A stretch of 64,000 nucleotides of DNA, from positions 54,693 through 118,692 of the forward strand of contig JAUYQZ010000036.1 in assembly GCA_030695415.1 (NCBI GenBank), written 5' to 3'. Positions 44,522 to 62,475 of this stretch are shown piece by piece; the first letter of the stretch is position 1, and every line of letters begins with the position of its first letter. The notes under the pieces were generated by a model. The model searched no databases. It was not told the origin of the DNA and saw only the letters and a program-made list of their open reading frames with translations. The translations under genes and the position numbers were made by a program. The stretch comes from Hylemonella sp. GTDB taxonomy: Bacteria; Pseudomonadota; Gammaproteobacteria; Burkholderiales; Burkholderiaceae_C.

Positions 44522-44573
44522 GTACATTGGGTGCCAACGGTCCGGGCTGCGCGGGCTGACACGAGAGTTGCCC
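44522..44573 (+). promoter_or_regulatory. Upstream element copy B (GTACATTG...AACGGTCCG...GGGCTGA)
   Basis: Colinear with 40244-40294. Confidence 0.55.
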
Positions 44574-45121: not shown

Positions 45122-45346
45122 ATGAACACCTTGTCCTACAAGATCGAAAGCTCCTCTCCCATCGTGGCATCGCTGCACCGCACGCAAGTACGCGACGGCG
45201 CCCTGCTGGCCAGCCGCGAACTGGCCGTTGCCCTGGCCGCCAAGAGCATCACGCATCCGCCGGGTGGCGTGGTGCGTGTGGTCCATGTGCCCACCGGCGA
45301 GGTGCTCTTCAGCAAGGTCAGCGGCTGGGGCGAACTGGACGAGTGA
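45122..45346 (+). CDS. Hypothetical small protein
   Basis: 74 aa MNTLSYKIESSSPIVASLHRTQVRDGALLASRELAVALAAKSITHPPGGVVRVVHVPTGEVLFSKVSGWGELDE; no domain recognised. Confidence 0.65.
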   Translation: MNTLSYKIESSSPIVASLHRTQVRDGALLASRELAVALAAKSITHPPGGVVRVVHVPTGEVLFSKVSGWGELDE

Positions 45347-45399
45347 GGGCGACGGTTGCGAGTCTCCTGGGGCAAGTTCGCGTGCGGGCTATCAGGCCC

Positions 45400-46152
45400 T
45401 CAGCAGTCCCCGGTGTGCCTGTCTCGGCTGCAGCTGACCTGGGTCGGCGCGGTGGGAGGCGCCTGCTGCCATTCCCAAGCCCAGTATGCGAGCACACCCG
45501 CCAGCAGCAGTGCAGCGAGCCATGCGTGATTGCGCTTGGCCAGGTCCGGCCCCGTGCCTTCCATGCGCCCGGTGAGCATGGGCGTGGCCTGGTTCCTGCG
45601 TCGCAGCACGCTCAGCACCAGCAGGAAGGCCAGGTGGCCCAGCACCAGCCACAGCATGAATTCACCCATCGCTTCGTGGATCTCCTCGAGCCATTCGCCA
45701 CCCCATTCGTGAAAGGCTGCGAAGCCGCTCAGCGTGAGTGGCAGCACCACGACCAGCAGGGCGATCACGGTCAAGGCCATGGCGAGGTACTGGCCCTGGC
45801 GCCAGTTCACCGGCGCAGCGTTCGGCCCCGTGCCGAACCAGGCCGCCTTCACGCTGCGCAGCCAGGCCGGCGCGTTTGCCACCTTGCCCCAGAGCAGGGA
45901 CAGGCGCGCCTGTCGTGGGCCGAACAGGCCGTAGAGCACGCGAAAGACCAGCAGGCCGGCTAGGCTGTACCCCAGCACGACGTGTACCAGGCGCAGGCGT
46001 TCTCCGTCGGCCGTGAGGTAGGCCCCCACGAAGCACAGGGCAAACAGCCAGTGGAACATGCGCGTGGGCGCGTCGATGACACGGCGTGTCGCAGCGGCCT
46101 GGCGCGGCGCGGCGCTGGCCACGGGGGTGTGAGGGGAGGCGGTGGTATTCAT
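45400..46152 (-). CDS. Cytochrome b561-type cytochrome b
   Basis: ...RVIDAPTRMFHWLFALCFVGAYLTADGERLRLVHVVLGYSLAGLLVFRVLYGLFG... Confidence 0.9.
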   Translation of the reverse strand: MNTTASPHTPVASAAPRQAAATRRVIDAPTRMFHWLFALCFVGAYLTADGERLRLVHVVLGYSLAGLLVFRVLYGLFGPRQARLSLLWGKVANAPAWLRSVKAAWFGTGPNAAPVNWRQGQYLAMALTVIALLVVVLPLTLSGFAAFHEWGGEWLEEIHEAMGEFMLWLVLGHLAFLLVLSVLRRRNQATPMLTGRMEGTGPDLAKRNHAWLAALLLAGVLAYWAWEWQQAPPTAPTQVSCSRDRHTGDC

Positions 46153-46175
46153 GCTGTCACTCCGGTTGGGGTTCA

Positions 46176-46709
46176 TCAGTCCTGGAAGGCGCGGCGGTAG
46201 CGCGCGTCCAGGCCGCGGGGGAATTGAAGTTCGCGCTCGTCAAAGCTGCCCTGCTCGGCGCGGGTATGGCAGGCCGCGCAGTTGGCCGCGCTCTTGACAC
46301 TGGCGTGTTGCCACACGGGCGCGTCCAGCTGGCGGTGTTCGCGCAGGAACCAGGCCGATTCGGTGATGCGGTCCTGCGGCGGCGGCGCGCTCACGCGCTT
46401 GTAGGTGCCGGCATGGGCCTGCAGCCACTGGCTGATCTGCTGCACCGTTGCCGCGTCGAGCGAGGCATCGGTGCCGTAGTGCTGGTCCAGGCCGTTCATG
46501 ATGCGGTCCCAGGAGCGCGCCGGCAGCAGGCCCGCCGGGTAGGCCAGGTGGCAGGCCGCGCATTCCTGCTGGTAGCTCGGCAGCATCTGGCGCGGGCTCA
46601 GCTTGCCGCTGTCGGCCCAGGCGGCGGTGCTGAGACCCAGCAGCAAGGCCTGGGCTGTCAGGCTGCGCAGGCGTGCGAGTCGGGCGAGAAATGGGAATGG
46701 GAAAGGCAT
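46176..46709 (-). CDS. Diheme cytochrome c (DHC-like)
   Basis: Two CXXCH motifs (CAACHLAYPAG, CAACHTRAEQG); signal peptide. Confidence 0.92.
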   Translation of the reverse strand: MPFPFPFLARLARLRSLTAQALLLGLSTAAWADSGKLSPRQMLPSYQQECAACHLAYPAGLLPARSWDRIMNGLDQHYGTDASLDAATVQQISQWLQAHAGTYKRVSAPPPQDRITESAWFLREHRQLDAPVWQHASVKSAANCAACHTRAEQGSFDERELQFPRGLDARYRRAFQD

Positions 46710-46727
46710 GGGGTGTCTCCGGTGGGC

Positions 46728-47135
46728 TCAGGGTTTCAGGCTGGCCAGGTAGGCCAGCACGTCGGCCTTCTCGGCGGCCGTGCACTCGCGGCTCAGCACG
46801 TCCTTGCAGTTGCGGCGCAGCCACTTGTCCACCTTGGCGACCTCGGTGAAGGACAGCGGGTTGAAGGCGGGCGCCAGCGGGGCGATGGTCTTGCCCGTGC
46901 TGGCGTGTTTGCCCTGGGCGGTGGGCGGCGTGCCGTGGCAGGAGGCGCAAGACCATTCGCCGCCGTGCTGGCTGCCGAAAAAGACCTTGCCCTGGGCCGC
47001 GTTGCCGGCTGCACCGGCCAGGGCGTTCCAGCGCGCCAGCTCCTGCGCCAGGCTGGTGTCCGCAGCCTGGGCGGCTTGCAGCATCAGCATCAGCGCCAGC
47101 CCGGCGGCGGCAGACCCGTAATGCAGTTTCTTCAT
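46728..47135 (-). CDS. DUF1924 / sphaeroides-heme-protein (SHP)-type monoheme cytochrome c
   Basis: CASCHG heme site; ...KVDKWLRRNCKDVLSRECTAAEKADVLAYLASLKP. Confidence 0.88.
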   Translation of the reverse strand: MKKLHYGSAAAGLALMLMLQAAQAADTSLAQELARWNALAGAAGNAAQGKVFFGSQHGGEWSCASCHGTPPTAQGKHASTGKTIAPLAPAFNPLSFTEVAKVDKWLRRNCKDVLSRECTAAEKADVLAYLASLKP

Positions 47136-47216
47136 GGGCAACTCCTGTTTCTTGTGGGTGGTTTCGGGATGGCGTTGATGGTGCGCCCCGCTGCCTGTAC
47201 CCAGGCTGAAGCGGCT

Positions 47217-47233
47217 GTTCATCTGCCGTTCAG
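47217..47233. promoter_or_regulatory. 11-bp-period direct repeat GTTCAT-CTGCC-GTTCAG (putative response-regulator box)
   Basis: In divergent intergenic region; matches periodicity of repeats at 56492-56519. Confidence 0.5.
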
Positions 47234-47283
47234 CTTCACTGCGCAGAATGGGGGGCCTAAGATCCCAACCTGGATACCCCTGC

Positions 47284-47592
47284 ATGCGCAAAACACTCGT
47301 CATCGCCACCTTGCTTGCTGCCGCGGCACTGACGCCGCTGGCCAGCCGGGCCGACGGTGACCACGACCGCGCCCGCGCCGCCTTGCAGGCCGGTGAAGTG
47401 CTGCCCTTGGCTGTCGTTCTGGAGCGTGTGGCAAAGGTCCACCCCGGCAACGTGCTGGAAGTGGAGTTGGAGCGCGAGAAGGGCCAATGGATCTACGAGC
47501 TCAAGATCCTGCAAAGCGGCGGCAGCCTGCTCAAGCTCAAGGTCGACGCCAAGACCGCCGCGCTCATCCGGCAGCGCGAGGTGCAACGCTGA
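47284..47592 (+). CDS. PepSY domain-containing periplasmic protein
   Basis: Signal peptide; ...VLPLAVVLERVAKVHPGNVLEVELEREKGQWIYELKIL... Confidence 0.9.
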   Translation: MRKTLVIATLLAAAALTPLASRADGDHDRARAALQAGEVLPLAVVLERVAKVHPGNVLEVELEREKGQWIYELKILQSGGSLLKLKVDAKTAALIRQREVQR

Positions 47593-48251
47593 TGCGCGTG
47601 CTGCTCGTTGAAGACGAACCCACGCTGGCCGCGCAGCTGCGCCAGGTGCTGCTCGATGCCGGTTACGCCGTGGACCAGGCCGACAACGGCCGCGACGCCT
47701 GGGTCCAGGGCGGTGTGCAGGCCTACGACGCCGTGGTGCTGGACCTGGGCCTGCCCGTGCTCGACGGCCTGAGTGTGCTCAAGCGCTGGCGCAGCGAAGG
47801 CATGAGCGCGCCGGTGCTCATCCTCACCGCGCGCGACCAGTGGCACGAAAAGGTGGCCGGCATCGACGCCGGCGCCGACGACTACCTGACCAAACCCTTC
47901 CACACCGAAGAACTGCTGGCCCGTGTGCGCGCGCTGATCCGCCGTGCGCAAGGATTGGCTTCGCCCACGCTCGCCTGCGGGCCGCTGGTGCTGGACACGC
48001 GCAGCGGCCGTGTCACGCTGAGCGGCCACCCGGTCAACCTCACCAGCCACGAGTACAAGGTGCTGGCCTACCTGATGCACCGGCCCGGCGCGGTGGTCTC
48101 GCGCGCCGAGCTCACCGAACACATTTACGCGCAGGACTTCGACCGCGACTCCAACACCATCGAGGTGTTTGTGGGCCGCCTGCGCAAAAAGCTGCCGGCC
48201 GAACTGATCGAGACCGTGCGCGGCCTGGGTTACCGACTGGTGGCGCCATGA
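47592..48251 (+). CDS. OmpR/PmrA/QseB-family response regulator
   Basis: MRVLLVEDEPTLAAQLRQVLLDAGYAVDQADNGRDAW...GADDYLTKPFHTEELLARVRAL... Confidence 0.95.
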   Translation: MRVLLVEDEPTLAAQLRQVLLDAGYAVDQADNGRDAWVQGGVQAYDAVVLDLGLPVLDGLSVLKRWRSEGMSAPVLILTARDQWHEKVAGIDAGADDYLTKPFHTEELLARVRALIRRAQGLASPTLACGPLVLDTRSGRVTLSGHPVNLTSHEYKVLAYLMHRPGAVVSRAELTEHIYAQDFDRDSNTIEVFVGRLRKKLPAELIETVRGLGYRLVAP

Positions 48252-49618
48252 GGCGCTCGCCCGTGTGGGGTTCGCTGCGCTGGCGCCTGCTGGCGGGCAC
48301 GGCGCTGGCACTGGCGCTGGCCTTGCTGCTGGCCGGCCTGGCGCTCACGGCCCTGTTCCGCGCCGAGATCGAGCGCCAGTTTGACGATGGCCTGCAACAA
48401 CAGCTCGACCAACTCACCGCACGGGTCGAGTTCGACGCCCAGGGCCAGATCGGCCTGGACGACAGCGCCTTGAGCGACCCGCGCTGGCGCCGGCCGTACT
48501 CGGGGCTGTACTGGCAGGTCGATGGCGCGCAGGCGCGCGGCGTGCTGCGCTCGCGTTCGCTGTGGGATGCCACGCTGGACAACGCCGGCGACGTCCTGAC
48601 CGACGGCCGCGTGCACCGGCACGACGTGACCGGTCCGCAGGGCGCCGCCGTGCGCGTGCTGGAGCGCGCGGTCTACCCGGCCGGGCAACCGCAGCTTGTG
48701 TGGCGCCTGCTGGTGGCCGCGGACCGCAGCGCCTCGGCCCAGGCAGTGACGCGGTTTGGCCAGGTGTTGTCGCTGTCGCTGGGCGTGTTGTGGTGCTTGC
48801 TGGCGGCAGCGGCGTGGGCGCAGGTGAGCGTGGGCCTGGCGCCCCTGCGTGCCTTGCAGGGCGCCGTCCTGGCGCTGCGTGAGGGCCGTGCGGCGCGCAT
48901 CACCGCCGACGCGCCCACCGAGTTGTTGCCGCTGGTGTTGGGCTTCAACGACGTGCTGGCGCGCAACGACGAGATGGTCGAACGCGCGCGCCAGCAGGCC
49001 GGCAACCTGGCCCACGCGGTGAAGACGCCGCTGGCCGTGATGGCGCAGGCCGCGTCGGGCGATGGGTCGCCGCTGGGCCAGGTGGTGCGCGAACAGACCG
49101 AAGCCGCCCGCCGCCAGGTGGACTGGCACCTGGCCCGCGCCCGCGCCACCGCCCACAAGGCCTTTGGCGCCGAGCAGGCGGCCGTGGCGCCGGTGCTGTC
49201 CGGGCTGCTGCGGGTGATGGAGCGCGTGTTTGCCGAGCGGGGCCTGCGGCTGCACATGCGCGACATCGACCCCGAAGCCCGTTGCGCCTGCGCCGTGCAA
49301 GACCTGCAAGACATGCTGGGCAACCTGCTGGACAACGCCTGCAAATGGGCTCGCCGCGAGGTGGTGGTGGGGCTCGAAGCACACGCTGGTGTCTGGTGTG
49401 TGGTGGTGGACGACGACGGCCCCGGTGTGGATGCCACGCGGCGCGACGCGGTGCTGGCCCGTGGCGTGCGGCTGGACGAAACGGTGCCCGGCTCCGGCCT
49501 GGGCCTGCACATCGTGCAGGAGCTGGCGCAGGTGTACGGCGGTGCGCTGGCGCTGGACGATTCGCCCCTGGGTGGCTTGCGCGTGCGCCTGACGCTGCCG
49601 GTGGCCGCTGTCACCTGA
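48248..49618 (+). CDS. QseC/PhoQ-like sensor histidine kinase
   Basis: Two TMs; ...[19 protein letters not shown]...[18 protein letters not shown]...; overlaps RR stop. Confidence 0.92.
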
Positions 49619-49663
49619 TGCCGTTATGCTGTGCGCCGTGGATGAACCACAGGGAGAAAACCA

Positions 49664-50128
49664 ATGGACTTGTTGAAATCGGTGTTGGGTGGCCTGGCCG
49701 CTGCGGCACAAGGCAATGCGGGCCAGGCCCAGGCACCTGCCGCTGGCGGGGTGGACCTGGCGGCGCTGGCGCCCGTGCTCATGGAGCTGCTGGCCGGCAA
49801 AGGCGGTGGTGCCGGCGCTGCGGGCGGTGGCCTGGGCGGGCTGGTCGAACAGCTCACGCAGGGCGGCCTGGGCGATGCGGTGCAGTCGTGGATCGCACGT
49901 GGGCAGAACATGCCGGTGTCGGGCAACCAGCTCGAATCGGCGCTGGGCAGCGACGTGCTGGGGCGCCTGGGCGGGCAGGTGGGCATGAACGGCGGCCAGC
50001 TTGGCGACGTGCTGGCGCAGGCGCTGCCCGGCCTGATCGACCGCATGACACCCGACGGCCAGCTGCCGCAGGGTGGCGCGGGTCAGGGCCCCGATCTGGG
50101 TGCTCTGCTGGGCCAGTTGCTGCGCTGA
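49664..50128 (+). CDS. YidB family (DUF937) protein
   Basis: [18 protein letters not shown]...[36 protein letters not shown]... Confidence 0.88.
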
Positions 50129-50144
50129 ACAGGCGGGCTTGTGG

Positions 50145-50178
50145 ACGGGGCCGTGGTTCTATCGGACCACGGCCCCGT
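50145..50178. terminator. 13-bp perfect hairpin without T-tract between yidB-like gene and galU
   Basis: ACGGGGCCGTGGT-tctatcgg-ACCACGGCCCCGT. Confidence 0.45.
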
Positions 50179-50229
50179 CATCGCTTGCATGTATGCTTTT
50201 CACATTTGGCTCGCTGTCCCCTTCTTCAG

Positions 50230-51117
50230 ATGAACCCCACCCCCGTTCGCAAAGCTGTCTTCCCCGTTGCCGGCATGGGCACCCGCTTCTTGCCCGCCAC
50301 CAAGGCCATGCCCAAGGAGATGCTGCCGGTGGTGGACAAGCCGCTGATCCAGTACGCGGTGGAAGAGGCCTATGCGGCGGGCATTCGCGAGATGATCTTC
50401 GTCACCGGCCGCCACAAGCGCGCCATCGACGACCATTTCGACATGGCCTACGAGCTCGAACGCGAGCTGGAAGACGCGGGCAAGGCCGCCCTGCTGGAGC
50501 AGGTGCGCTCGGTCAAGCCCGACGACATGGTGTGTATTGCCATCCGCCAGCCCAAGGCCCTGGGCCTGGGCCATGCGGTCTTGTGTGCCGAGCCGCTGGT
50601 GGCCGGCGAGCCTTTTGCCGTGCTGCTGGCCGACGACCTGATGGTGGGCACGCCCGCCGACGGCGCGGTGCTCACGCAAATGGTGCGCCAGTTCGGCCAG
50701 TTGGGCCGCTCCATCCTGGCGGTGCAAGAAGTGCCGGCCGAACACACGCGCCGCTACGGCATCGTGGCCGGCGACATGCTGAACGAGCGCCTGATGGACG
50801 TGCGCGAGATCGTCGAAAAACCCGCGCCCGAGGTGGCCCCTTCGCGCTGGGGTGTGGCCGGCCGCTACGTGCTCACGCCCGAGGTGTTCCAGCAGATCCG
50901 CGAACAGCCGCGTGGCGTGGGCGGCGAAATCCAGCTCACCGACGGCATCGCCGGCCTGATGCGCAGCCAGAAGGTGTACGCCTTCCGCTACGAGGGCAAA
51001 CGCTACGACTGCGGCAGCAAGGAAGGTTTCCTGGAGGCCACGGTGGAGCTGGCGATGCAGCGGCCCGAGCTGGCCGAGGGTCTGCGCGAGACCATGCGCA
51101 AGCTGCTGGCGGTCTGA
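50230..51117 (+). CDS. galU: UTP-glucose-1-phosphate uridylyltransferase
   Basis: [47 protein letters not shown]... Confidence 0.97.
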
Positions 51118-52590
51118 TCAGGGCTGCCCTGCGGCCCAGGCCAACAGCGCTTGCAGCGCGGGCCGCGCCGCGTGTGCGTTGGGGTGGTTGACGATGGCCA
51201 CGAACACCAGGCGCCTGCCTTGCGCGCCGTGCACGTAGCCGGCCAGCGCACTCACATCGTTCAGGCTGCCGGTTTTCAAATGGGCCAGGCCCACCGCGTT
51301 CTGGCTGCGCCGCAAGGTGCCGTCGTGGCCGCTCAGCGGCAGTGAGGCCATCAGCTCGGGCATGTGGCCGCTGGCGTAGGCGGTGCGCAGCAAACGCCCC
51401 AGCGCCTGCGCGGTGGTGCGGGCCGTGCGGCTCAGGCCGGCGCCGTTGTCCACGTCGGGCAGCGGCACGTCGGCGCCCACACGCTCGCGCCACCAGGTGG
51501 CCACGCGCTGGCGGGCGGCATCGAACGTGGCCGGCCCGTTGCTTGTGTTCAGGGCCAGGCTGAGCAGCAGGTGCTGGGCCATCACGTTGTTGCTGAACTT
51601 GTTGATGTCACGCACCACCTCGGGCAGCGGCACCGAGGGCCAGACCAGGCGGGGGCTGAGGCCGGCGGGCACGGCGCCGTCGCGCACCTGGCCGTCGAGC
51701 TGGCCGCCCACGGCCTGCCACATGCCCAGCACCGCACGCTCGGCAAAACGCTCGGGCGCGGCGTAGGCCACGGGCCAGCTGCGTTCGCCGCAGGCCGCGG
51801 GGTAGGCGCCGGCCAGGCGGATGCGCAGCGGGTCGGAAAAGTCGGCCTTGAGGCCACCGCGCCAGTCGCCGCAACCGTTGCCGTTTCCATTGCCGATGGG
51901 GGCCAGCGGCACGCTGGCGGGCAGGGCCACGCCGCCCAGTGGGGGCTCCACGGCGACCTGCGCCACGCCGCTGGCGGGATCGGGCGAAAAAGTCATCACC
52001 ACCGACTTGAAGTTGAGCAGCAGCGCGTCGGGCGAGGCGTTGTAGGGCCGCAGCGGTTCGCCGTCGAAGGCGCCGGGGTCCACCGGGGGCAGCTGGAAGG
52101 CGCGGCGGTCGAGCACGATGTCGCCCGTGATGCGGCGTATGCCCAGCCCCTGGATGCGGCGCATCAGCAGCCACAGGCGCTCGGTCACCAGCTTGGGGTC
52201 GCCGCCGCCCTGGAGGTAGAGGTGGCCCTGCAGCACACCGTCTTTCACCGGGCCATCGGTGTAGACCGGCGTGGTCCAGGTGTGGCCGGGGCCCAGCAGG
52301 TCGAGCGCGGCGTAGGTGGTGACGAGTTTCATCACCGAGGCCGGGTTGACCGGCGCCTGCGCCCGGTGTGTGGCATAGACCCGGGCGTCGTCGCCCGCGT
52401 CCATCACCAGCACGGCCAGGGCCGAGGCGGGCACGCGCGCCTGCGCCAGCGCGGCGTTGACGGCCGGCGGCAGGGTTTCGGGCGCCAGCGGTGCGGGTTG
52501 TGCCAGGGCCGGCAGCGCGCAACTCGCCACGAGTGCGCACACGCAGCGTCGCCAATGGGAAATGGAATGGGAAAGGGATAACGGGGCCAT
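51118..52590 (-). CDS. dacB: D-alanyl-D-alanine carboxypeptidase/endopeptidase (PBP4)
   Basis: ...NPASVMKLVTTYAALDLLGPGHTWTT...VDNGAGLSRTARTTAQ...HLKTGSLNDVSALAGYV... Confidence 0.94.
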   Translation of the reverse strand: MAPLSLSHSISHWRRCVCALVASCALPALAQPAPLAPETLPPAVNAALAQARVPASALAVLVMDAGDDARVYATHRAQAPVNPASVMKLVTTYAALDLLGPGHTWTTPVYTDGPVKDGVLQGHLYLQGGGDPKLVTERLWLLMRRIQGLGIRRITGDIVLDRRAFQLPPVDPGAFDGEPLRPYNASPDALLLNFKSVVMTFSPDPASGVAQVAVEPPLGGVALPASVPLAPIGNGNGNGCGDWRGGLKADFSDPLRIRLAGAYPAACGERSWPVAYAAPERFAERAVLGMWQAVGGQLDGQVRDGAVPAGLSPRLVWPSVPLPEVVRDINKFSNNVMAQHLLLSLALNTSNGPATFDAARQRVATWWRERVGADVPLPDVDNGAGLSRTARTTAQALGRLLRTAYASGHMPELMASLPLSGHDGTLRRSQNAVGLAHLKTGSLNDVSALAGYVHGAQGRRLVFVAIVNHPNAHAARPALQALLAWAAGQP

Positions 52591-52629
52591 GGGCCGGATT
52601 ATCCGAGCGCCACCGGGATAATCCCTCCC

Positions 52630-53595
52630 ATGAGCTTTTCCTTTCGCCGGCCCAGCCCGCGTGTGCTGGGGGTGGGCGCGGCGCTGGTGACGGTCCTGAT
52701 GTGGACCGCCTTCATCGTCGTGGCCCGCGCCAGCGCCCACCGCACCCTGACCCCCTTCGACATCGCCTTCATGCGTTTTGTGGGCGCGGGTGTGGTGCTG
52801 CTGCCGGTGGGTTGGTGGATGGTGCGGCGCGCCTCAGCACAGGGTGGGCGGGCGACGTCGTGGCTGGGGTTGTCGCCACTGTCGGCGCGGCTCACGGTCA
52901 CGGTGGGCCTGCTGGCGGGCATCGCGTATTCGTGCCTGGCCTACAGCGGCTTCTACTTTGCGCCGGCCACCCACGCCTCGGTGCTCATGCCCGGCACGCT
53001 GCCGCTGTTCACCACCCTGGTGGCCGCGTGGGTGCTGCGCGACCGCATCACGCCGTCCCGCGCCGTGGGGCTGGCGCTGATCCTCTGCGGCGACCTGCTG
53101 GTGGGTGGCGCCAGCCTGCTGCAGGCCTTTGGCGGCGGCACGGTGTGGATGGGTGACCTGATGTTCATGGCCGCGGCCTTCTGCTGGGCCAACTACACGG
53201 TGGTGGCGCGCCGCCACGGGCTGGCGGCGGTGCCGGCCACGGTGGCGGTGTCGGTGTTTGCGCTGCTGGGTTTTGTGCCAGCCTACGCGCTGCTGGCCGC
53301 CTCTGGGGTGGTCACCAGCCACTTGCTGCAGGCACCCTGGCAGGAGCTGCTGTTCCAGGGTGTGGGTTCGGTGGTCATCTCGGGCATCACCTTCACCCAG
53401 ATGGTGCGCCACTTCGGGCCGGTGCGCTCCACCATGATCACCTCGCTGGTGCCGGGGCTGTCGGCCATGGGCGCGGTGTGGCTGCTGGGCGAGCCGCTGC
53501 ACTGGAACCTGCTGGCCGGCCTGCTGCTGGTCACGGCGGGCATCGTGTTCGGCGTGCGGGCGGTGGCGCCACCGCCCGGGGCCGCACGTGCCTGA
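52630..53595 (+). CDS. DMT/EamA-family transporter
   Basis: About ten TM segments, two EamA repeats. Confidence 0.9.
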   Translation: MSFSFRRPSPRVLGVGAALVTVLMWTAFIVVARASAHRTLTPFDIAFMRFVGAGVVLLPVGWWMVRRASAQGGRATSWLGLSPLSARLTVTVGLLAGIAYSCLAYSGFYFAPATHASVLMPGTLPLFTTLVAAWVLRDRITPSRAVGLALILCGDLLVGGASLLQAFGGGTVWMGDLMFMAAAFCWANYTVVARRHGLAAVPATVAVSVFALLGFVPAYALLAASGVVTSHLLQAPWQELLFQGVGSVVISGITFTQMVRHFGPVRSTMITSLVPGLSAMGAVWLLGEPLHWNLLAGLLLVTAGIVFGVRAVAPPPGAARA

Positions 53596-53608
53596 AGCAC
53601 AATTGGGC

Positions 53609-54376
53609 ATGGTCAGCGTTTCCCGATTTCTTGCTTTTGACACCAGCACCGACACCCTGTCGGTGGCCGTGGGGGTGGGCGGCCCGCACAACGCGCCCTT
53701 GGCCGCCTTCACCGGCGTGGGCGGCGCCCAGGCCTCGGCCACGCTGATCCCGCAGATACAGGCGCTGCTGGCCCAGGTCGGCTGGCGGCTGGACGAGCTC
53801 GATGCCATCGTTTTCGGGCGCGGGCCCGGCGCCTTCACCGGCGTGCGCACCGCGTGCGCCGTGGCGCAGGGGCTGGCGTTTGCTGCCCGCCCGCAAGGCC
53901 TGCCGGTGTTGCCGCTGGACACCTTGTGGGCCGTGGCCGAAGAAGCCCGCGCCGCCTTGGCCGCCGATGGCCAGACCGCGCCCCACACCATCGCCGCCGT
54001 GCTCGATGCCCGCATGGACGAGGTCTATGTGGCCAACTACACCGTGAATGCCGACGCCCTGAAGCCGCTGGACGCCCCGCGCCTGTGCCGGCCCGACGAC
54101 CTGCATCTGGCCGTGTCACCGGTGGCGGGCACGGTGCTGGCGGGCAACGCGGCGGCGGTGTACGGCGAACGGTTGGATGCGGCGCTGCGTGCCTTGCCGC
54201 AGGTGCCGTGTCTGCCCACCGCCGCTGCCCTGCTGCGCCTGGCGCCCGCCGCGCTGGCCCAGGGCCTGGCCGTGGGTGCCGCCGAGGCACAGCCGCTGTA
54301 CGTGCGCGACAAGGTGGCCCAGACCACGGCCGAGCGCGAGGCCATCAAGCTGGCCCAGGCAGCGGGGTCGGCATGA
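53609..54376 (+). CDS. tsaB: tRNA threonylcarbamoyladenosine biosynthesis protein TsaB
   Basis: FLAFDTSTDTLSVAVG...IVFGRGPGAFTGVRTACAVAQGLAF. Confidence 0.95.
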   Translation: MVSVSRFLAFDTSTDTLSVAVGVGGPHNAPLAAFTGVGGAQASATLIPQIQALLAQVGWRLDELDAIVFGRGPGAFTGVRTACAVAQGLAFAARPQGLPVLPLDTLWAVAEEARAALAADGQTAPHTIAAVLDARMDEVYVANYTVNADALKPLDAPRLCRPDDLHLAVSPVAGTVLAGNAAAVYGERLDAALRALPQVPCLPTAAALLRLAPAALAQGLAVGAAEAQPLYVRDKVAQTTAEREAIKLAQAAGSA

Positions 54377-54879
54377 CGCGGCGCTTCGAGTGGGTGCCGC
54401 TCAGCGCGGACGTGCTGCCGCTGGTGGCGGAGGTGGAGAAAACCGCCTACAGCCACCCCTGGACCGTGGGCCATTTCAGCGACACCATGAACGCCGGCCA
54501 CCACACCCAGGTGCTGGCGGGCGAGGCCTTGGCCAGCGATGTGGGTTTGCCGACCCTGGCCGACGGCCGCGTGCTGATCGGTTACCTGGTGGCCATGCAG
54601 ATTCTGGACGAAGTGCACCTGCTCAACCTCACCGTGGCACCCGCCCTGCAGCGCCAGGGCTGGGGCCGTGTGCTGCTGGACGCCCTGGCCCTGTGGGCGC
54701 GCGGCCAGCAGGCCCAGTGGCTGTGGCTGGAGGTGCGCGCCAGCAACGTGGCCGCGCTGGCCGCCTACCGGCAACGCGGTTTTGCCGAAGTGGGCCGCCG
54801 CCGCGACTACTACCCGCTGGACAACAGCCGGCGCGAGGACGCCATCGTGATGAGCCTCAACCTCAAGGTGACGCCATGA
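54373..54879 (+). CDS. rimI: Ribosomal protein alanine N-acetyltransferase (GNAT)
   Basis: ...LLNLTVAPALQRQGWGRVLLDALALWARGQQAQWLWLEVRASNVAALAAYRQRGFAEVGRRRDYYP. Confidence 0.93.
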   Translation: MTRRFEWVPLSADVLPLVAEVEKTAYSHPWTVGHFSDTMNAGHHTQVLAGEALASDVGLPTLADGRVLIGYLVAMQILDEVHLLNLTVAPALQRQGWGRVLLDALALWARGQQAQWLWLEVRASNVAALAAYRQRGFAEVGRRRDYYPLDNSRREDAIVMSLNLKVTP

Positions 54880-55754
54880 GCGACACGCCACCCGTGTTGA
54901 CCCAGGGCCTGCAGCTCGACGAACGCCAGCGCGCCATGCTGGCCGAGATGGGCGTGCGACTGTGGTGGCCTGAAGCCGACGTGTCCCCCGACGCGCTGAC
55001 CGACACACTCACCGAGGCCGTGCCGCCGCCGGCTGCAGCGCCTGTGGCGCGCCCACCCGTGGCCGCGCCCGCCGCCGCGCCCGTTGTTCGCCCGGCACCT
55101 GCCGCTGCGCCCGCACGCCCACTGCCGCCTGTGGTGGCGGCACCCTCCAGCCTGTCCCATCTGGACTGGGCCGCGCTGCAGGACAGCATGAAGGCCTGCA
55201 CCGCCTGTGCCTTGAGCCAGGGCCGCAGCCACGTGGTGCCCGGCGTGGGCGACACCGACCGCCCCGACTGGCTGGTGGTGGGCGAAGCGCCCGGCGAACA
55301 GGAGGACCGCCAGGGCGAGCCTTTTGTGGGCGCGGCCGGCCAGCTGCTCGACAAGATGCTGTTCGCCATGGGCCTGGCGCGTGGCGAGCGGGTGTTCATC
55401 ACGAACGTCATCAAGTGCCGCCCGCCGCACAACCGCAACCCCGAGCCGGCCGAGGTGGCGCAGTGTTCACCCTTCCTGCAACGCCAGATCGAGCTGCTGC
55501 AGCCGCGCATTGTGCTGGCCGTGGGACGTTTCGCTGCACAAAGTGTGCTGGCCCTGGCGGGCGTGGACGAAGCCACCCGTGCCCAGCCCCTGGGCAAGCT
55601 GCGCGGCCAGGTCTTCCGCCTGCCCACCGCACAGGGCACGGTGCCCGTGGTGGTGAGCTACCACCCCGCCTACCTGCTGCGCAGCCCGGCCGAAAAAGGC
55701 AAGGCCTGGGCCGATCTGTGCCTGGCGATGGCGCAGTTGGAGCGTTCGGCTTGA
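54876..55754 (+). CDS. Uracil-DNA glycosylase, family 4 type
   Basis: ...WLVVGEAPGEQEDRQGEPFVGAAGQLLDKML...FITNVIKCRPPHNRNPEPAEV...VVVSYHPAYLLR. Confidence 0.93.
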   Translation: MSDTPPVLTQGLQLDERQRAMLAEMGVRLWWPEADVSPDALTDTLTEAVPPPAAAPVARPPVAAPAAAPVVRPAPAAAPARPLPPVVAAPSSLSHLDWAALQDSMKACTACALSQGRSHVVPGVGDTDRPDWLVVGEAPGEQEDRQGEPFVGAAGQLLDKMLFAMGLARGERVFITNVIKCRPPHNRNPEPAEVAQCSPFLQRQIELLQPRIVLAVGRFAAQSVLALAGVDEATRAQPLGKLRGQVFRLPTAQGTVPVVVSYHPAYLLRSPAEKGKAWADLCLAMAQLERSA

Positions 55755-55801
55755 GTGGTGCTTGAGGCGCCTTGCCTCATGGTGGCTAGGTGGTTGGTAT
55801 T

Positions 55802-55818
55802 ACGGTTGTTATAACCGT
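55802..55818. promoter_or_regulatory. Inverted repeat ACGGTT-gttat-AACCGT, putative TA operator
   Basis: Perfect 6-bp arms immediately upstream of antitoxin gene. Confidence 0.55.
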
Positions 55819-55829
55819 CAGAGGTCGCC

Positions 55830-56054
55830 ATGCACACGCTCAAACTCACCCAGATCGGCAACTCCGTGGGCGTCATCCTGCCCAAGGAGATGCTGGCGAA
55901 GCTCAAGTTGGAAAAAGGCCAGTCCGTGTTCGTGACCGAAACACCAGAGGGGTTTGTGCTGACACCTTACGACCCAGCGTTGGACGAACAGATTCAAGCC
56001 GGTCGCGCCTTCATGCAGGATTTCCGCGACGCCTTCCACCAGCTCGCCAAGTGA
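55830..56054 (+). CDS. AbrB/MazE-fold antitoxin
   Basis: MHTLKLTQIGNSVGVILPKEMLAKLKLEKGQSVFVTETPEG... Confidence 0.93.
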   Translation: MHTLKLTQIGNSVGVILPKEMLAKLKLEKGQSVFVTETPEGFVLTPYDPALDEQIQAGRAFMQDFRDAFHQLAK

Positions 56055-56434
56055 ACTGGCGCTCGATAGACCGTGTGGCGCTGATGCTCTTGCAAGACGA
56101 AAGTCTGGCCGAGCATGGCGGACGTGCCGGCTTGCGCGATGCGGGCTTGCTCGACTCGGCACTGGCTCGGCCATTGAACCTGACCGCTTGTGGCGAATCT
56201 GATTTTGCCGACCTGGCGGCCAGCTATGCCTATGGGCTGGCGCAGAACCACGCTTTTGTGGATGGCAACAAACGGGCTGCCTTCTTGGCCGTGGGCTTGT
56301 TTCTGTACCTCAACGGCTACCGCTTGCGCACCACGCAGGCAGACGCCACGATCAACATGCTCGGTCTGGCGGCGGGTGAACTTTCAGAAACCGACTTCGC
56401 CGCCTGGCTGCGCCGCCACGTCCAAGCAGTGTGA
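56051..56434 (+). CDS. doc: Death-on-curing (Fic/Doc) family toxin
   Basis: Fic motif HAFVDGNKRAAF; GTG start overlapping antitoxin stop. Confidence 0.92.
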   Translation: MNWRSIDRVALMLLQDESLAEHGGRAGLRDAGLLDSALARPLNLTACGESDFADLAASYAYGLAQNHAFVDGNKRAAFLAVGLFLYLNGYRLRTTQADATINMLGLAAGELSETDFAAWLRRHVQAV

Positions 56435-56491
56435 GCCGTGGCCGGCGAGTGTGCAGCTTGCGTGACAAACCACGCGCGCGTGTCGGGCCCA

Positions 56492-56519
56492 CTTAAGACC
56501 CGCTTCAGGCGCACTTCAG
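56492..56519. promoter_or_regulatory. Three 11-bp-period repeats CTTAAG-acccg-CTTCAG-gcgca-CTTCAG (PmrA/QseB-like box)
   Basis: Exact 11-bp periodicity; matches layout of known PmrA boxes YTTAAK-N5-YTTAAK. Confidence 0.55.
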
Positions 56520-56595
56520 GCACCGATAAGCAGCGCCCCGTCCAATCGGTTTTGAGCCAGCCACCCGGCTTGCCAACCGACCGAAAGGACATCTC

Positions 56596-56856
56596 ATGCA
56601 ACGCACCCTGATCACCTCCGCCCTCATCGCTTTGGCCTCCACCACCGCCCTGGCCGGCCCCGCCTGCAACGTGCCACAAAACCAGTGGATGAAGGAGGGC
56701 GACTTCCGCGCCAAGATGGAGCAGCAGGGTTACCAGGTCAAGACCTTCAAGGTCAGCAAAGGCCAGTGCTACGAGATCTACGGTTTCGACAAGGCCGGCA
56801 AAAAGGTCGAGATCTATTTCGACCCCGCCACCGCTGCCGTGCTTGAGCAGAAGTGA
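56596..56856 (+). CDS. PepSY domain-containing periplasmic protein
   Basis: Signal peptide; ...NQWMKEGDFRAKMEQQGYQVKTFKVSKGQCYEIYGFDKAGKKVEIYFDPATAAVLEQK. Confidence 0.92.
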   Translation: MQRTLITSALIALASTTALAGPACNVPQNQWMKEGDFRAKMEQQGYQVKTFKVSKGQCYEIYGFDKAGKKVEIYFDPATAAVLEQK

Positions 56857-57398
56857 GCGCGCCCACGCCGCAGGCACGGCCCCGCGCGGTGAAGGTGTGG
56901 GACCCGTTTGTGCGCCTGTTTCACTGGAGTGTGGTGGTCTGCGTGCTGCTCAACCAGTTTGTGCTGGAAGCGGGCGAGACGCCGCACGAGTGGAGCGGTT
57001 ACATCGCCAGCGCGCTGGTGGTGGCGCGCATTCTGTGGGGTTTTGTCGGCACGCGCCATGCGCGCTTTGCCGACTTCTTTCCCACGCCCGCGCGCATCCG
57101 CCAGCACCTCATGGCCATGCGCCAGGGGCACGCAGCCGAACACCCCGGTCACAACCCGTTGGGTGCACTCATGATGCTGGCGTTGATGGCCCTGGTGCTG
57201 TCCCTGGGCGTCACCGGCTGGCTGCAGGGCACCGACGCGTTTTGGGGCGAAGACTGGCTGCAGGAACTGCACGAATGGCTGGCCAACGGCCTGCTGCTGG
57301 CCGCCGGGCTGCACGCGGCAGCCGCTGTGGTGATGGGCCGCATGGAGCGGGTGAACCTGGTGCGCGCCATGGTCACCGGCGTCAAACGGTTTGAGTAA
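56853..57398 (+). CDS. Cytochrome b561-type cytochrome b
   Basis: VKVWDPFVRLFHWSVVVCVLLNQFVLE... GTG start overlapping PepSY stop. Confidence 0.9.
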   Translation: MSAPTPQARPRAVKVWDPFVRLFHWSVVVCVLLNQFVLEAGETPHEWSGYIASALVVARILWGFVGTRHARFADFFPTPARIRQHLMAMRQGHAAEHPGHNPLGALMMLALMALVLSLGVTGWLQGTDAFWGEDWLQELHEWLANGLLLAAGLHAAAAVVMGRMERVNLVRAMVTGVKRFE

Positions 57399-57417
57399 GC
57401 GGTTTGAGTGAGGTCGA

Positions 57418-58473
57418 TCACGCCTCGCCGAGCGAGACACCGATCTCGCGCGCCGTCACCAGCAGCGGGTCATCGGGTGCGATGGTGCGCTGCTGGTTGG
57501 CCACACGCGCCATGGGCAGGCTGCGCAGTTCGCCGCCCTGCAGCGTGACCATCTCGCCAAAACGCCCTGCGGCCACCAGTTGCGCCGCGTGGTGGCCGTA
57601 GCGCGTGGCCAGCACGCGGTCGAAGGGCGTGGGCTGGCCGCCGCGCTGCACATGGCCCAGCACCGTGGCACGCACCTCGCTCTTGAGGTGGGGCTGCAAC
57701 TGTTCGCGCAGCACATGGGCCACGCCGCCCAGGCGCACCGGGTCAAAGCTGCCTTCCACACGGCCTTGCACGGTAAGGTCGGAACCCCGTGCCTTGGCGC
57801 CTTCACCGATGCAGATCACGGTGTAGCGCTGCTTGCTTTCGCGCTCGTGGCAGACCCGCGCCACGGCTTCGATCGCGTAGTCGATCTCGGGCAGCAGCAC
57901 AATGTCGGCCGCTGCGGCCAGGCCAGCTTCGAGCGCGATCCAGCCGGCGTGCCGGCCCATGGTCTCGACGATCATCACCCGGCTGTGGCTCATGGCCGTG
58001 GTCTCTATGCGCATGAGGCCGTCGGTGGCGGTGGCCACGGCGGTGTCGAAGCCGAAGCTGCGTTCGCAGCCCACGATGTCGTTGTCTATGGTCTTGGGCA
58101 CCCCCACGCTGCGCAGGCCATGTGCCGCCAGGCCGTGGGCGATGGACATGGTGCCATCACCGCCGATGACCACCAGGCCATCGAGGGCCAGTGCGCGCGC
58201 ATGGACCAGGGTGCGTTCGGTGTCGGCCGGGGTGCGCAGCGGGTTGGATTGGTTGCTGGTGCCCAGGATGGTGCCGCCTCGATGGGCAATGCCGCTGACA
58301 CTGCGCCAGTCCAGCACGCGGGTGCGCGGGCTGGTGTCCATCAGGCCAAAAAAGCCGTCCTCGATGCCGATGACCTCGGCCCCACATTGCCGGATCAACG
58401 ATTTGGTGACCGCGCGGATCACCGCATTGAGGCCGGGGCAGTCGCCGCCGCCGGTGAGGACGCCGATGCGCAT
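57418..58473 (-). CDS. pfkA: 6-phosphofructokinase
   Basis: MRIGVLTGGGDCPGLNAVIRAV...VVIGGDGTMSIAHGL...VPKTIDNDIVGCERSFGFDTA... Confidence 0.93.
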   Translation of the reverse strand: MRIGVLTGGGDCPGLNAVIRAVTKSLIRQCGAEVIGIEDGFFGLMDTSPRTRVLDWRSVSGIAHRGGTILGTSNQSNPLRTPADTERTLVHARALALDGLVVIGGDGTMSIAHGLAAHGLRSVGVPKTIDNDIVGCERSFGFDTAVATATDGLMRIETTAMSHSRVMIVETMGRHAGWIALEAGLAAAADIVLLPEIDYAIEAVARVCHERESKQRYTVICIGEGAKARGSDLTVQGRVEGSFDPVRLGGVAHVLREQLQPHLKSEVRATVLGHVQRGGQPTPFDRVLATRYGHHAAQLVAAGRFGEMVTLQGGELRSLPMARVANQQRTIAPDDPLLVTAREIGVSLGEA

Positions 58474-58481
58474 GGGTTCTC

Positions 58482-59645
58482 CTATCGGGGCCACAAGGCC
58501 CACAACTGCAGAGCTTGCTTGAGTCCGGCGGCCTGCGCAAGCGCGTCATCGCCCCAGCCGGTGAAGTAGTCGGCGCGCACCGCACCCACGATGGCGCTGC
58601 CGGTGTCCTGCGCCAGCACCAGCTTGTTGAAGCGCGCGGCCGGCCCTTGTGTGCTCATCCACACCGGCGTGCCGTAGGGCAGGCTGCCGGGGTCCACCGC
58701 GATGGAGCGCCCGGGCGTGAGCGCGACACCTTGCGCGCCGCGCGGGCCGAACTGGGCGTCGAGTTCGCTCAGGGCTTCCTTGCGGAAGAACACGTAGCGC
58801 GGGTTGCTCCACAACAATTCATTCACGCGCTGCGGGTTGGCACGGGCCCAGGCTTTGGTGGCCTCGGGCCAGGGCGTGATGGGCGCACCCTGTTGCTGCA
58901 GCCAGGTGTTGATGCTGCGGTAGGGCTGGCCGTTGGTGCCGGCAAAGGCCACCCGCACGGTCTGTGTGGTCTGCCCGTTCTGCTGGATCAGCAGCCGCCC
59001 CGAGCCCTGGATGTGCAGCAGCATCAGGTCGATGGGGTCGGCCAGCCAGGCAATTTCTTGCCCGCGCAGCGCGGCCTGGGCCTGCGGCAGCGTGTCCATC
59101 TCTTGCCGGCTGAACCAGGGCTGGCCGTTGCGCACACCAGCGGGCAGCTTGTGCAGCGGCCAGGCAAATTCGGCGCTGGGCGTGCGGCTGGCCTTGAGCG
59201 TGGGTTCGTAGTAGCCGGTCAGCAGGCCGTTGGGGTTGCCGTCGCTGGCCGTGATGCGGTAGGGCTGCAGCCGGCTTTCGATGAAGGCGCGCTGTTCTTC
59301 TGGTGTGGCAATCGACAGGCGCCGCACCTCGGCGCACAGCGCGCCCACCGTGGGCGCGGGGCGCTCGCAGCTGCGCAGCCAGGCGTTCCAGGCCTCGTGC
59401 AGGGCGTCGGCGCCCCAGCCCGGCAGCTCGCTCCAGCGCACCGGCACCCACTGGCTTTTGGCGCGGGTGATGGTGCCGGGCAGCGGCGTGTCGTCGGGAG
59501 GGCTGACTGCCCCAGGCGCGGGCACCACCGAGGGGACGGGCGCGCGTGGGGGTTCTGGCAACGGGCGGGTGGCGCAGGCGGCCAGCGTTCCTACAATCGC
59601 CACCATCGCCCATCTCGCGTGTGCCCAGGCGCGCGCCCTCGCCAT
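58482..59645 (-). CDS. mltA: Murein transglycosylase A (lipoprotein)
   Basis: ...LLTGYYEPTLKASRT...LLHIQGSGRLLIQQNGQ...LAQDTGSAIVGAVRADYFTGWGDDA...; lipobox-like LAAC. Confidence 0.94.
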   Translation of the reverse strand: MARARAWAHARWAMVAIVGTLAACATRPLPEPPRAPVPSVVPAPGAVSPPDDTPLPGTITRAKSQWVPVRWSELPGWGADALHEAWNAWLRSCERPAPTVGALCAEVRRLSIATPEEQRAFIESRLQPYRITASDGNPNGLLTGYYEPTLKASRTPSAEFAWPLHKLPAGVRNGQPWFSRQEMDTLPQAQAALRGQEIAWLADPIDLMLLHIQGSGRLLIQQNGQTTQTVRVAFAGTNGQPYRSINTWLQQQGAPITPWPEATKAWARANPQRVNELLWSNPRYVFFRKEALSELDAQFGPRGAQGVALTPGRSIAVDPGSLPYGTPVWMSTQGPAARFNKLVLAQDTGSAIVGAVRADYFTGWGDDALAQAAGLKQALQLWALWPR

Positions 59646-59772
59646 GACCTTGTTGTTGCTCGAAGCCCTGGGGGCTTTGCTGATTTTTGTGTTCATCGTC
59701 TGGTGGACCATGTTCTCGGGGCGCAAGAAGGGGGAGTTGCCGCCCGAGGACGAGGACAACACCAAGGGCTGA
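59644..59772 (+). CDS. 42-aa single-TM hypothetical protein
   Basis: MTLLLLEALGALLIFVFIVWWTMFSGRKKGELPPEDEDNTKG; TM plus acidic tail. Confidence 0.55.
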   Translation: MTLLLLEALGALLIFVFIVWWTMFSGRKKGELPPEDEDNTKG

Positions 59773-59774
59773 AA

Positions 59775-60410
59775 TCAGCTCTCCACATCGCGCAGCATGT
59801 TGGCCAGCTCCACGGCCGACTTCACGTTCATCTTGTCGAACACGCGCGAGCGGTGCACCTCCACCGTGCGCACGCTGATGCCGAGCTGATCGGCCACCAG
59901 CTTGTTGGGCAGACCGGCCACCACCCGCTGCATCACGTCGCGCTCGCGCTCGGTCAGGCTGGCCAGGCGGGCCTGGTGGTCGCGCCGGACCTGGCGCACC
60001 GCAATCGCCTCGGCCGAGGCTTGCAGCGCCTGCTCGATGCGGTCCACCAGCGCGTTGTCGGAAAACGGTTTTTCGCAGAAGTCGAAGGCGCCGCGTTTGA
60101 CCGCGTCCACGGCGGTGGGCACGTCGGCGTGACCGGAGAGAAAAATCACCGGCAACACGCTGCGCCAGGGTTGCGCCAGCAGGTGTTCGAACAGGGTCAG
60201 GCCGCTCATGCCGGGCATGCGCACGTCCAGCAGCAGGCAGGTCGGGTCGGTGGGTTCGCTGCGCCAGCCTTGCGCCTCGGCCCAGAAGGCGTCGGCGCTG
60301 GGGTAACACTCGCTGAGCAGGCGCCGCGTGCGCAGCAGCCAGGCCAGCGCGTCGCGCACGCTGGTGTCGTCGTCAACGATGAAGACTCGGGCGCGGTGGG
60401 GCGGGTTCAT
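59775..60410 (-). CDS. FixJ/LuxR-family response regulator
   Basis: RVFIVDDDTSVRDALAWLL... and HTH ...LTERERDVMQRVVAGLPNKLVADQLGISVRTVEVHRSRVFDKMNVKSAVEL. Confidence 0.94.
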   Translation of the reverse strand: MNPPHRARVFIVDDDTSVRDALAWLLRTRRLLSECYPSADAFWAEAQGWRSEPTDPTCLLLDVRMPGMSGLTLFEHLLAQPWRSVLPVIFLSGHADVPTAVDAVKRGAFDFCEKPFSDNALVDRIEQALQASAEAIAVRQVRRDHQARLASLTERERDVMQRVVAGLPNKLVADQLGISVRTVEVHRSRVFDKMNVKSAVELANMLRDVES

Positions 60411-60420
60411 GGGTTGGCGA

Positions 60421-62475
60421 TCATACGGTTGATGCCGGCGCCGCCGGCAGCGTGAAGCGGAACACCGTGCCGCGCGGCTCGGCGGGGCCGTGTTCGAGCG
60501 CGCCGCCGTGTTGTTCGATCACGGTGCGGCACAGGCTCAGTCCCAGGCCCATGCCTTCGGCCTTGGTGGTGAAAAAGGGCGTGAACAGGCGCGCAGCCAC
60601 CTCGTCGCTCAGGCCCTGGCCGTGGTCCGTCACCTGGAACTCGACCCAGCGTTTGCCCACCGCCGTGGCCAGGGTGGCGCGCACCGGCGCCACGCGCAGG
60701 GTCAGCGTGCGCAGGCCGCTGGCGGCCGGTGGGTCGCCCCGGGGCATGGCCTGCATGCCATTGCGCACGAGGTTGAGCAGCACCTGCTCGACCATGGTGC
60801 GATCACACAGCACCGGCGGGCAGTTGTCGTCCACGATGTCGTGGATGCGTATGTCGGTCTTGCGGGCCTGCAGCTGTGCCAGCGGCAGGATGGCGTCGAG
60901 CAGGGCCTGCGGCGCCACCGGTTCGCGCACCTGCTCGCGCCGGCGCACCAGGTCGGCCACGCTCTTGACCACGCGGCCGGCGCGCTCGGCCTGCTCGACG
61001 ATGCGCTGCATGGCCTGGCGCAGGTCTTGTGAGAGCTGGGGGTCGGGCGGCTGCGTGGGCTCGCCAGACATCAGGTTGAGCGCGCCGGTGGCGTAGCTGG
61101 ACATGGCCGCCAGCGGCTGGTTGAGTTCGTGGCTCAGCAGCGAGGCCATCTCGCCCACCATGGCCAGGCGGGCCGTGGCCTGCAGGCGCTCCTGGCTGGC
61201 GCGCGAGAGCTCTTCCACACGGCGCTGCTCGCTCAGGTCCAGCACGGCGCTCATCCAGCCGGTCTGCTGGCTGAAGGCGTTCACCAGCGGTGCTTCGATG
61301 ATGAGCACCGGCAAGAGGCTGCCGTCCGGGCGCATGAAGACCGACTCGAAGCCCTCGCGCGGAAAGGTCATGCCGGCCAGGCGCACGGCCTGGCGCTGGC
61401 GGTACTCGTCCACCAGTTCGGGCGGCCAGTAGGGCGCGGGTGCGCCGCTGCCCAGCAGCTGCTCGGCGCTCAGGCCCACCATCTGGCAGAAGGCCGGGTT
61501 GACGTAGGTGATGCGCCCTTCCATGTCGCGCGCACGCAGCCCGGTGACGAGCGAGTTCTCCATCGCGTTGCGAAAGGCCAGGGCCTCGGCCAGCTCGCTT
61601 TCGGCGCGCATGCGCCGGCGCATGTCGCGTGCCAGCAGCAGCAGCACGGCCAGCAGCGCCAGCGACAGCGTGCTGACCATGGCGGTGAGCACGTTGGGAA
61701 ACAGGCGCGGCACGTCGCGCGCGCTTTCCAGGCGCACCAGCATGGTCACGCCGGGCAGGTCGAGCAGGTGGCTGGCGTGCATCGTGCGGCGGCGCCCGGC
61801 CACGCTGCCGAACATGCTCAGCCGGGTGCCGTCCACCTCGGTCAGCGCCACGGCCTTGCCGCGCAGCGTGTCCTTGCTGGTGAACTCGCTCAGCATGCCC
61901 TGCAGCGAGTAGGTGGCCACAAAGTAGCCATCGGGCCGCGCCGACACGAACAGCGGCACACACACCTCCATCAGCTCCAGTCCCAGGCCCTGCGGTATGG
62001 GCCAGAAATAGCTCTGCGAATAGGACGGCGTGTTGTTGCGCCCGGCGGTGGTGCAGGCCTGGCGCACATCGGCCAGCGACTGGCTTCGCGGCGCGGTGTC
62101 GAACAGCGTGGGGTGAAAGCCGCTGTCGCGCGCGGCCAGCAGGCGCAGGTCGTTGCTGCGCCATTCCAGCCGCACCAGCTCGCGGTGCTGGCCCAGCAGC
62201 TCGGCGGCCATGGGCTCCCAGGCCTCGGCGCTGGGGCGCGAGGCGTGCAGCGACTGCAGGGTCTGCAGGTTGCGGATCAGGTTGGTGCGTATGTCGCTGC
62301 CCAGGGTGGCGGCGTCCTGCTCCAGCGCCTCCAGGCTGCGCGCCTCCTTGTATTCGCGCGCCAGAAACACCAGCGCACCCAGCATCAGCGCCACCAGCAG
62401 GCACAGCAGCACCCACAGGCGCCAGCGCCGGGCCTGGCCCGGGCGCGGGTCGTGGGGTGGCTGGCTCGGGTTCAA
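60421..62475 (-). CDS. PAS-domain sensor histidine kinase
   Basis: Periplasmic sensor, PAS, ...MASLLSHELNQPLAAMSSYATGALNL..., HATPase ...GMGLGLSLCRTVIEQHGG. Confidence 0.93.
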   Translation of the reverse strand: MNPSQPPHDPRPGQARRWRLWVLLCLLVALMLGALVFLAREYKEARSLEALEQDAATLGSDIRTNLIRNLQTLQSLHASRPSAEAWEPMAAELLGQHRELVRLEWRSNDLRLLAARDSGFHPTLFDTAPRSQSLADVRQACTTAGRNNTPSYSQSYFWPIPQGLGLELMEVCVPLFVSARPDGYFVATYSLQGMLSEFTSKDTLRGKAVALTEVDGTRLSMFGSVAGRRRTMHASHLLDLPGVTMLVRLESARDVPRLFPNVLTAMVSTLSLALLAVLLLLARDMRRRMRAESELAEALAFRNAMENSLVTGLRARDMEGRITYVNPAFCQMVGLSAEQLLGSGAPAPYWPPELVDEYRQRQAVRLAGMTFPREGFESVFMRPDGSLLPVLIIEAPLVNAFSQQTGWMSAVLDLSEQRRVEELSRASQERLQATARLAMVGEMASLLSHELNQPLAAMSSYATGALNLMSGEPTQPPDPQLSQDLRQAMQRIVEQAERAGRVVKSVADLVRRREQVREPVAPQALLDAILPLAQLQARKTDIRIHDIVDDNCPPVLCDRTMVEQVLLNLVRNGMQAMPRGDPPAASGLRTLTLRVAPVRATLATAVGKRWVEFQVTDHGQGLSDEVAARLFTPFFTTKAEGMGLGLSLCRTVIEQHGGALEHGPAEPRGTVFRFTLPAAPASTV

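Follow-up and report, generated by a model that had tools for sequence, protein, structure and literature searches.

The 56492-56546 region of the window, the window being the whole stretch of 64,000 nucleotides that was analysed, is very probably the regulated promoter of a PepSY_2-cytochrome b561 operon, bound by an OmpR-family response regulator (RR) of the PmrA/QseB/BqsR group. Three exact CTTMAG hexamers, which are CTTAAG, CTTCAG, and CTTCAG separated by acccg and gcgca, follow each other at 11-bp steps on the forward strand (56492-56519), just as the first-pass annotation had described in sequence, position, and periodicity. A fourth unit in the same register, GATAAG, was overlooked there and is off CTTMAG at two positions. 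It is best read as a degenerate repeat, since arrays of four intact units, with 10 bp between the last unit and the -10, are found in a Gallionellaceae locus (L153) and in Hydrogenophaga intermedia (L210) and share the geometry of the window array. The four units (CTTAAGacccgCTTCAGgcgcaCTTCAGgcaccGATAAG, 56492-56530, forward strand) are located between the stop codon of a Doc-type toxin gene at 56434 and the start codon of the PepSY_2 gene at 56596. Exactly 10 bp separate the end of unit 4 from the -10-like hexamer TCCAAT, transcription is expected to start ca. 6-7 bp past this hexamer, near 56553, and the promoter has no good -35. TCCAATCGGTTTTG recurs unchanged in the promoter of the Rubrivivax pictus pair (L011/L184), the closest orthologue. 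The array is hence made of direct repeats with a TTAA or TTCA core and an 11-bp period, has a fixed position with respect to the -10 when counted from unit 4, and is kept upstream of orthologous genes. By these features, it is an OmpR-family tandem operator of the PmrA/BqsR layout and probably an activator site over the -35 region, and the sites of several OmpR subfamilies are indistinguishable by sequence alone. The region was also considered as an RNA element, a reading that was dropped because an Rfam search of 44000-60000 gave no match to such an element. The features are listed in Table 1.

Table 1. Coordinates of the operator, the pair, and the resident two-component system in the window.
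Feature	Coordinates	Strand	Basis
Operator unit 1, CTTAAG (extra upstream unit)	56492..56497	+	Sequence; PWM, pair of units 1-2
Operator unit 2, CTTCAG (extra upstream unit)	56503..56508	+	Sequence; PWM, units 2-3
Operator unit 3, CTTCAG, first of two promoter-proximal units	56514..56519	+	Register with orthologues: unit pair, N10, -10
Operator unit 4, GATAAG, degenerate, at the conserved promoter-proximal half-site position	56525..56530	+	11-bp register; 10 bp before TCCAAT
-10-like TCCAAT	56541..56546	+	TNNAAT-like hexamer at the corresponding place in orthologues
Shine-Dalgarno-like AAGGA before PepSY gene	56585..56589	+	Sequence
Small secreted PepSY_2 protein, 86 aa	56596..56856	+	Pfam PF13670, 8.7e-31
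Cytochrome b561, 181 aa	56853..57398	+	Pfam PF01292, 3.6e-26
Divergent operator CTTCAG-cctgg-GTACAG towards the DUF1924-DHC-cytochrome b cluster	47195..47211	-	Sequence, PWM
Resident PepSY-RR-HK operator GTTCAT-ctgcc-GTTCAG-N10-CAGAAT	47217..47233	+	Sequence, orthologue comparison, PWM
PepSY protein of the kinase operon (Orf1/DbfQ-like)	47248..47592	+	Pfam PF03413; PMC2909971, PMC12714742
OmpR-family response regulator RR47592, BqsR/CarR-like, candidate regulator	47592..48251	+	Domain, profile, and receiver comparisons
SK1-type (BqsS-like) histidine kinase, SGLYWQ and RSRSLWD motifs	48248..49618	+	Translation, Pfam, profiles

At 56853, the stop codon of the PepSY_2 gene and the start codon of the cytochrome b561 gene overlap (GTGA), and the pair is hence probably transcribed as a single operon. 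Two cysteines of the PepSY_2 protein, C24 and C58, are invariant in the orthologue alignment, which suggests a disulfide or a metal/redox role. No solved structure related in sequence to this protein was found, and a role of the pair in periplasmic electron transfer or sensing is a guess from its domains. Directly upstream of the operator, at ca. 55827..56434 of the forward strand, a short AbrB/MazE-like ORF overlaps the Fic/Doc gene (Pfam PF02661), the two being a probable toxin-antitoxin pair. The earlier view that no two-component genes flank the pair holds insofar as none of the OmpR type adjoins it; a LuxR-domain response regulator and a PAS histidine kinase are encoded 2.4 kb downstream on the reverse strand (59775..62475). 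Since a LuxR-type DNA-binding domain would not be expected on 11-bp direct repeats, this regulator is an unlikely controller.

The repeats are rare by composition and widespread by descent. A first-order Markov model of the window predicts 0.008 occurrences of CTTMAG-N5-CTTMAG per 64 kb; for the CTTMAG triple, the expectation is 2e-6 per 64 kb or 1e-4 per 3.7-Mb genome. These expectations, together with shuffle controls on the orthologue promoters, rule out that the repeats arose by chance. The 301 genomes of the same family contain ca. 28 strong PepSY_2 orthologues. After the upstream regions had been oriented, BTTMAB-N5-BTTMAB was found within 150 bp of the start codon in 20 of 25 of them, compared with 0.05 in shuffles. 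The 23 family promoters without a linked RR47592-type regulator all carry a TNNAAT-like hexamer, with one mismatch allowed, exactly 10 bp after the best site. The second set, which partly overlaps the family set, comprises 80 named loci from Burkholderiales, Rhodocyclales, Gallionellaceae, and others. Among its 77 readable loci, 71 reach an operator score of at least 14/16, and the gap between operator and -10 is exactly 10 bp in 73. The full arrangement of operator, N10, and TNNAAT is exact in 46 of 76 loci and in none of 200 shuffles. As the sites were picked with a seed pattern, the consensus is biased towards the seed, whereas the shuffle controls are unbiased. Both the proposal of a PmrA/QseB-type 11-bp operator in front of the pair and the expectation that its repeats would recur at orthologous PepSY-cytochrome b promoters are thus borne out by conservation and by enrichment over shuffles.

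By analogy with PmrA and BqsR, a phosphorylated RR of the OmpR/PhoB family, belonging to the PmrA/QseB/BqsR group and acting on the pair in trans, would bind the operator units head to tail and activate the promoter. An RR dimer on the promoter-proximal units 3-4 would replace the -35 and recruit RNA polymerase to TCCAAT. Occupancy would be increased by a second dimer on units 1-2, and the upstream units may offset the weak unit 4. On account of this weak unit, the upstream units may matter more than they do in BqsR promoters, and activation may be weak since the promoter-proximal unit is degenerate.

Elsewhere, PepSY_2-cytochrome b561-RR-histidine kinase (HK) operons or divergent RR-HK genes are common, and their RRs are usually PmrA/QseB-like. 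The adjoining RRs comprise group A1 (L045, L046, and others), group A2 (L055, L058, and L062), and the QseB-like group A3 (L051 and L059). An RR of the RR47592 type, referred to as B, adjoins the pair in divergent arrangement in L061 and L070, and more distant B-type relatives do so in Zoogloea (L202, L212, and L221). Where a B-type RR adjoins the pair, the operator units read GTTCA or TTTCA and the gap is 11 bp. The three Zoogloea promoters, with this 11-bp gap and GAGAAT or GACAAT as the -10, are unlike those of nearly all other pairs and, at the level of sequence, are a naturally occurring example of a promoter that changed along with its partner. Mapping the partner labels onto the tree of the pair requires 12 changes, and the window pair sits beside a clade containing A1 operons and two B-type pairs, with mixed support (98/64).

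Whole-genome scans connect the pair to regulators encoded at a distance. The pattern BTTMAK-N5-BTTMAK-N10-TNNAAT has 17 matches in 22 whole genomes and one in the reversed control. Of the 17, eleven lie at pair promoters and two at the promoters of RRs that G012 (Rubrivivax pictus) and G139 encode apart from the pair. In each of these two genomes, the sole two full-pattern matches belong to the pair and to an A1/A2-type RR encoded elsewhere, a strong comparative argument that a regulator encoded far from a stand-alone pair, and carrying a matching box, can control it. The strict full pattern has no match in the genome of the window (G000), the window promoter escaping it because unit 4 is degenerate. 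When the genome was scanned with the repeat, as the first-pass annotation had suggested, the CTTMAG triple proved unique to 56492-56519; looser BTTMAK-N5-BTTMAK sites stayed close to the control count (15 genome-wide versus 10 for the reversed pattern), and no wider regulon was found in G000. It is an evenly balanced proposition that the pair is a redox module of constant operator and promoter design, whose two-component partner has been swapped among at least four OmpR subfamilies (A1, A2, A3, and B) or has been relocated; half-sites and gap would have adapted to the new partner, and the regulon of a split genome would consist of two promoters.

The system to which the pair had been assigned, at 47592-49618, does not resemble QseBC. 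A 2CSK_N domain (PF08521) is absent from the kinase, which carries SK1 motifs and scores 145 bits with PhoQ versus 63 bits with QseC, for which the cut-off is 475. RR47592 scores 184 bits with QseB (cut-off 345) and higher with PmrA (214.5) and PhoP (202), all below the cut-offs; the window has no QseB equivalog. Periplasmic motifs resembling SGVYWQ and RSRSLWD mark the SK1 sensor and set it apart from the QseC-like SK2 (Meyer, PMC2909971). The 47248-49618 genes combine SGLYWQ and RSRSLWD in the kinase with a PepSY/Orf1 gene before the RR gene. Among solved structures, the RR47592 receiver best matches P. aeruginosa CarR/BqsR (8gc6), and a BqsR homologue (L247) has the gene order PepSY-PepSY-RR-HK and a kinase with RSRSLWD. 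From the SK1 motifs, the receiver match, and the L247 gene order, 47248-49618 is classified by sequence as BqsRS/DbfQRS-like (PMC12714742, PMC4682146). The kinase-operon operators of RR47592 orthologues are uniform (GTTCAT-N5-GTTCAG, 10-11 bp gap), with a mirrored one for the DUF1924-DHC-cytochrome b genes, and the back-to-back operators at 47195..47233 are kept in most of the orthologous clusters examined. A second SK1-type PepSY-RR-HK system (L039/L078), with its own box ATTCAG-gctcg-GTTCAG, lies near one end of contig 1 of G000, and its RR is 73% identical to RR47592. In G209, G138, and G115 (L223, L226, and L227), the gene of a PmrA-like RR, which has a CTTAAG/GTTAAG-type box of its own, is a few kb away from the SK1 cluster, and visual inspection places a PAP2-type phosphatase gene next to it in G209 and G138.

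RR47592 nevertheless stays a candidate through the box at its own promoter, and its control of the pair, which the first-pass annotation had thought probable, is a matter of roughly even balance. Judged by the pattern in G012 and G139, such a box makes RR47592 and its contig-1 paralogue the best resident candidates, either of which would act in trans; taken together, they fall a little short of an even chance. About as likely is an A-type PmrA/QseB-like regulator outside the assembly or either of the two TctD-like RRs of G000. The genome encodes eight OmpR-type DNA-binding proteins, none of the A1, A2, or A3 type, and a missing or foreign contig is possible, as the assembly is 98.7% complete with an estimated contamination of 7.8%. 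Position weight matrices (PWMs) were built from A-type and B-type sites, and the three overlapping unit pairs were scored. For units 1-2, 2-3, and 3-4, the scores are 17.5, 20.1, and 13.3 with the A matrix versus 10.0, 16.8, and 9.8 with the B matrix, by which an A-type regulator would be favoured and a B-type one would be possible for units 2-3.

That the operator belongs to an A-type PmrA/QseB-like regulator, which ancestrally adjoined the pair and is now encoded elsewhere, outside the assembly, or replaced by a TctD-like RR (L042 or L044), is a serious possibility, though somewhat below even. All three unit pairs score above B with the A matrix; the 10-bp gap and TCCAAT, both A-type features, are kept; the tree places the window pair beside clades with A1 operons; and G012 and G139 are likewise split, their RR acting in trans with a matching box at its own promoter. 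However, despite its completeness, G000 has no A1/A2/A3-like RR above 46-48% identity, and neither L042 nor L044 has a box at its own promoter.

The other reading makes the first-pass assignment specific and can be put forward tentatively: RR47592, the BqsR-like regulator of the SK1 system, would occupy units 2-3 and switch on the pair along with its own operon and the divergent DHC-cytochrome b cluster. Of the eight OmpR-type RRs, only RR47592 and its contig-1 paralogue have their own promoters marked by an 11-bp TTCA box, and the other BTTMAK-N5-BTTMAK sites in G000 are nearly all intragenic. The B score of units 2-3 is inside the spread of B-type divergent sites, the pair is divergent beside an RR47592 orthologue in the two genomes of L061 and L070, and TTAAG repeats are the target of a member of this family in P. 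aeruginosa, BqsR (PMC4682146). Four genomes of the same genus have a strong match neither to RR47592 nor to the pair. On the other hand, B-type operators start with GTTCA in the kinase promoters of all 20 genomes used, and the gap of the window promoter is 10 bp versus 11 bp in pairs adjoining B-type RRs. RR47592 is missing from five of the ten genomes with stand-alone pairs and is no commoner there than with RR-adjoined pairs (5/10 versus 9/14, p=0.68). Within the family, RR47592 and the pair co-occur (16/27 versus 70/274, p=5e-4), an association that is confounded by kinship and is no proof. The recognition helix reads F-V-G-R in RR47592 versus H-I-N-R in the BqsR homologue, residues that are suggestive only as a regulator identifier.

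It is improbable that the operator is a relic whose cognate regulator is gone, the pair being constitutive or silent: no OmpR-type regulator adjoins the pair, the deviant GATAAG could mark decay with loss of unit 4, and the strict full pattern is unmatched in G000, but both genes of the pair, the -10, and three of the four units are intact, and the extra units, found in other lineages too, could make good the loss.

A regulated promoter of the PmrA/QseB/BqsR group is an operator of a known kind, and for the PepSY_2-cytochrome b561 pair we found no description in the literature searched. The pair is now tied, in Burkholderiales and Rhodocyclales, to a regulator group associated with sensing of iron and envelope stress; Fe(II), Mg(II), and polymyxin are the customary signals of BqsRS/PmrAB. 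As the regulon is so small, with one or two promoters per genome, co-evolution of regulator and operator after a partner change is directly testable.

Four known systems can be compared. The SHP/DHC/cytochrome b clusters with SK1/SK2 (Meyer 2010) are matched in kind by 45400-49618 of the window (DHC, DUF1924, cytochrome b, PepSY/Orf1, and SK1), whereas the 56596-57398 pair differs in having no SHP or DHC gene adjoining it. The QseB/PreA regulon offers a functional precedent by kind of target, as Salmonella PreA/PreB (QseBC) strongly activates the cytochrome b561 gene STM1253 (PMC2653508), and QseB-like RRs adjoin the pairs at L051 and L059; the window differs by its lack of a QseB equivalog. 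The PmrA box, as in K. pneumoniae pbgP, likewise consists of tandem hexamer half-sites, CTTAAT and CCTAAG, which PmrA binds head to tail (PMC4660055, PMC3973317), the binding mode predicted here, but it has two half-sites and the window operator four; none of the four PmrA-like RRs of G000 tested reaches the NCBIfam PmrA cut-off. BqsR sites of P. aeruginosa are TTAAG-N6-TTAAG repeats, and where there are four pentamers, as in the PA14_04180 promoter, the last overlaps the -35, with 3 and 4 critical and 1 and 2 additive (PMC4682146). The window operator differs from them in mixing TTCA and TTAA units, in its degenerate last unit, and in its target, the PepSY_2-cytochrome b561 pair. It resembles them in the 11-bp period, the direct repeats, the last unit at the promoter core, and the chaining of units, which reaches up to five in BqsR operators.
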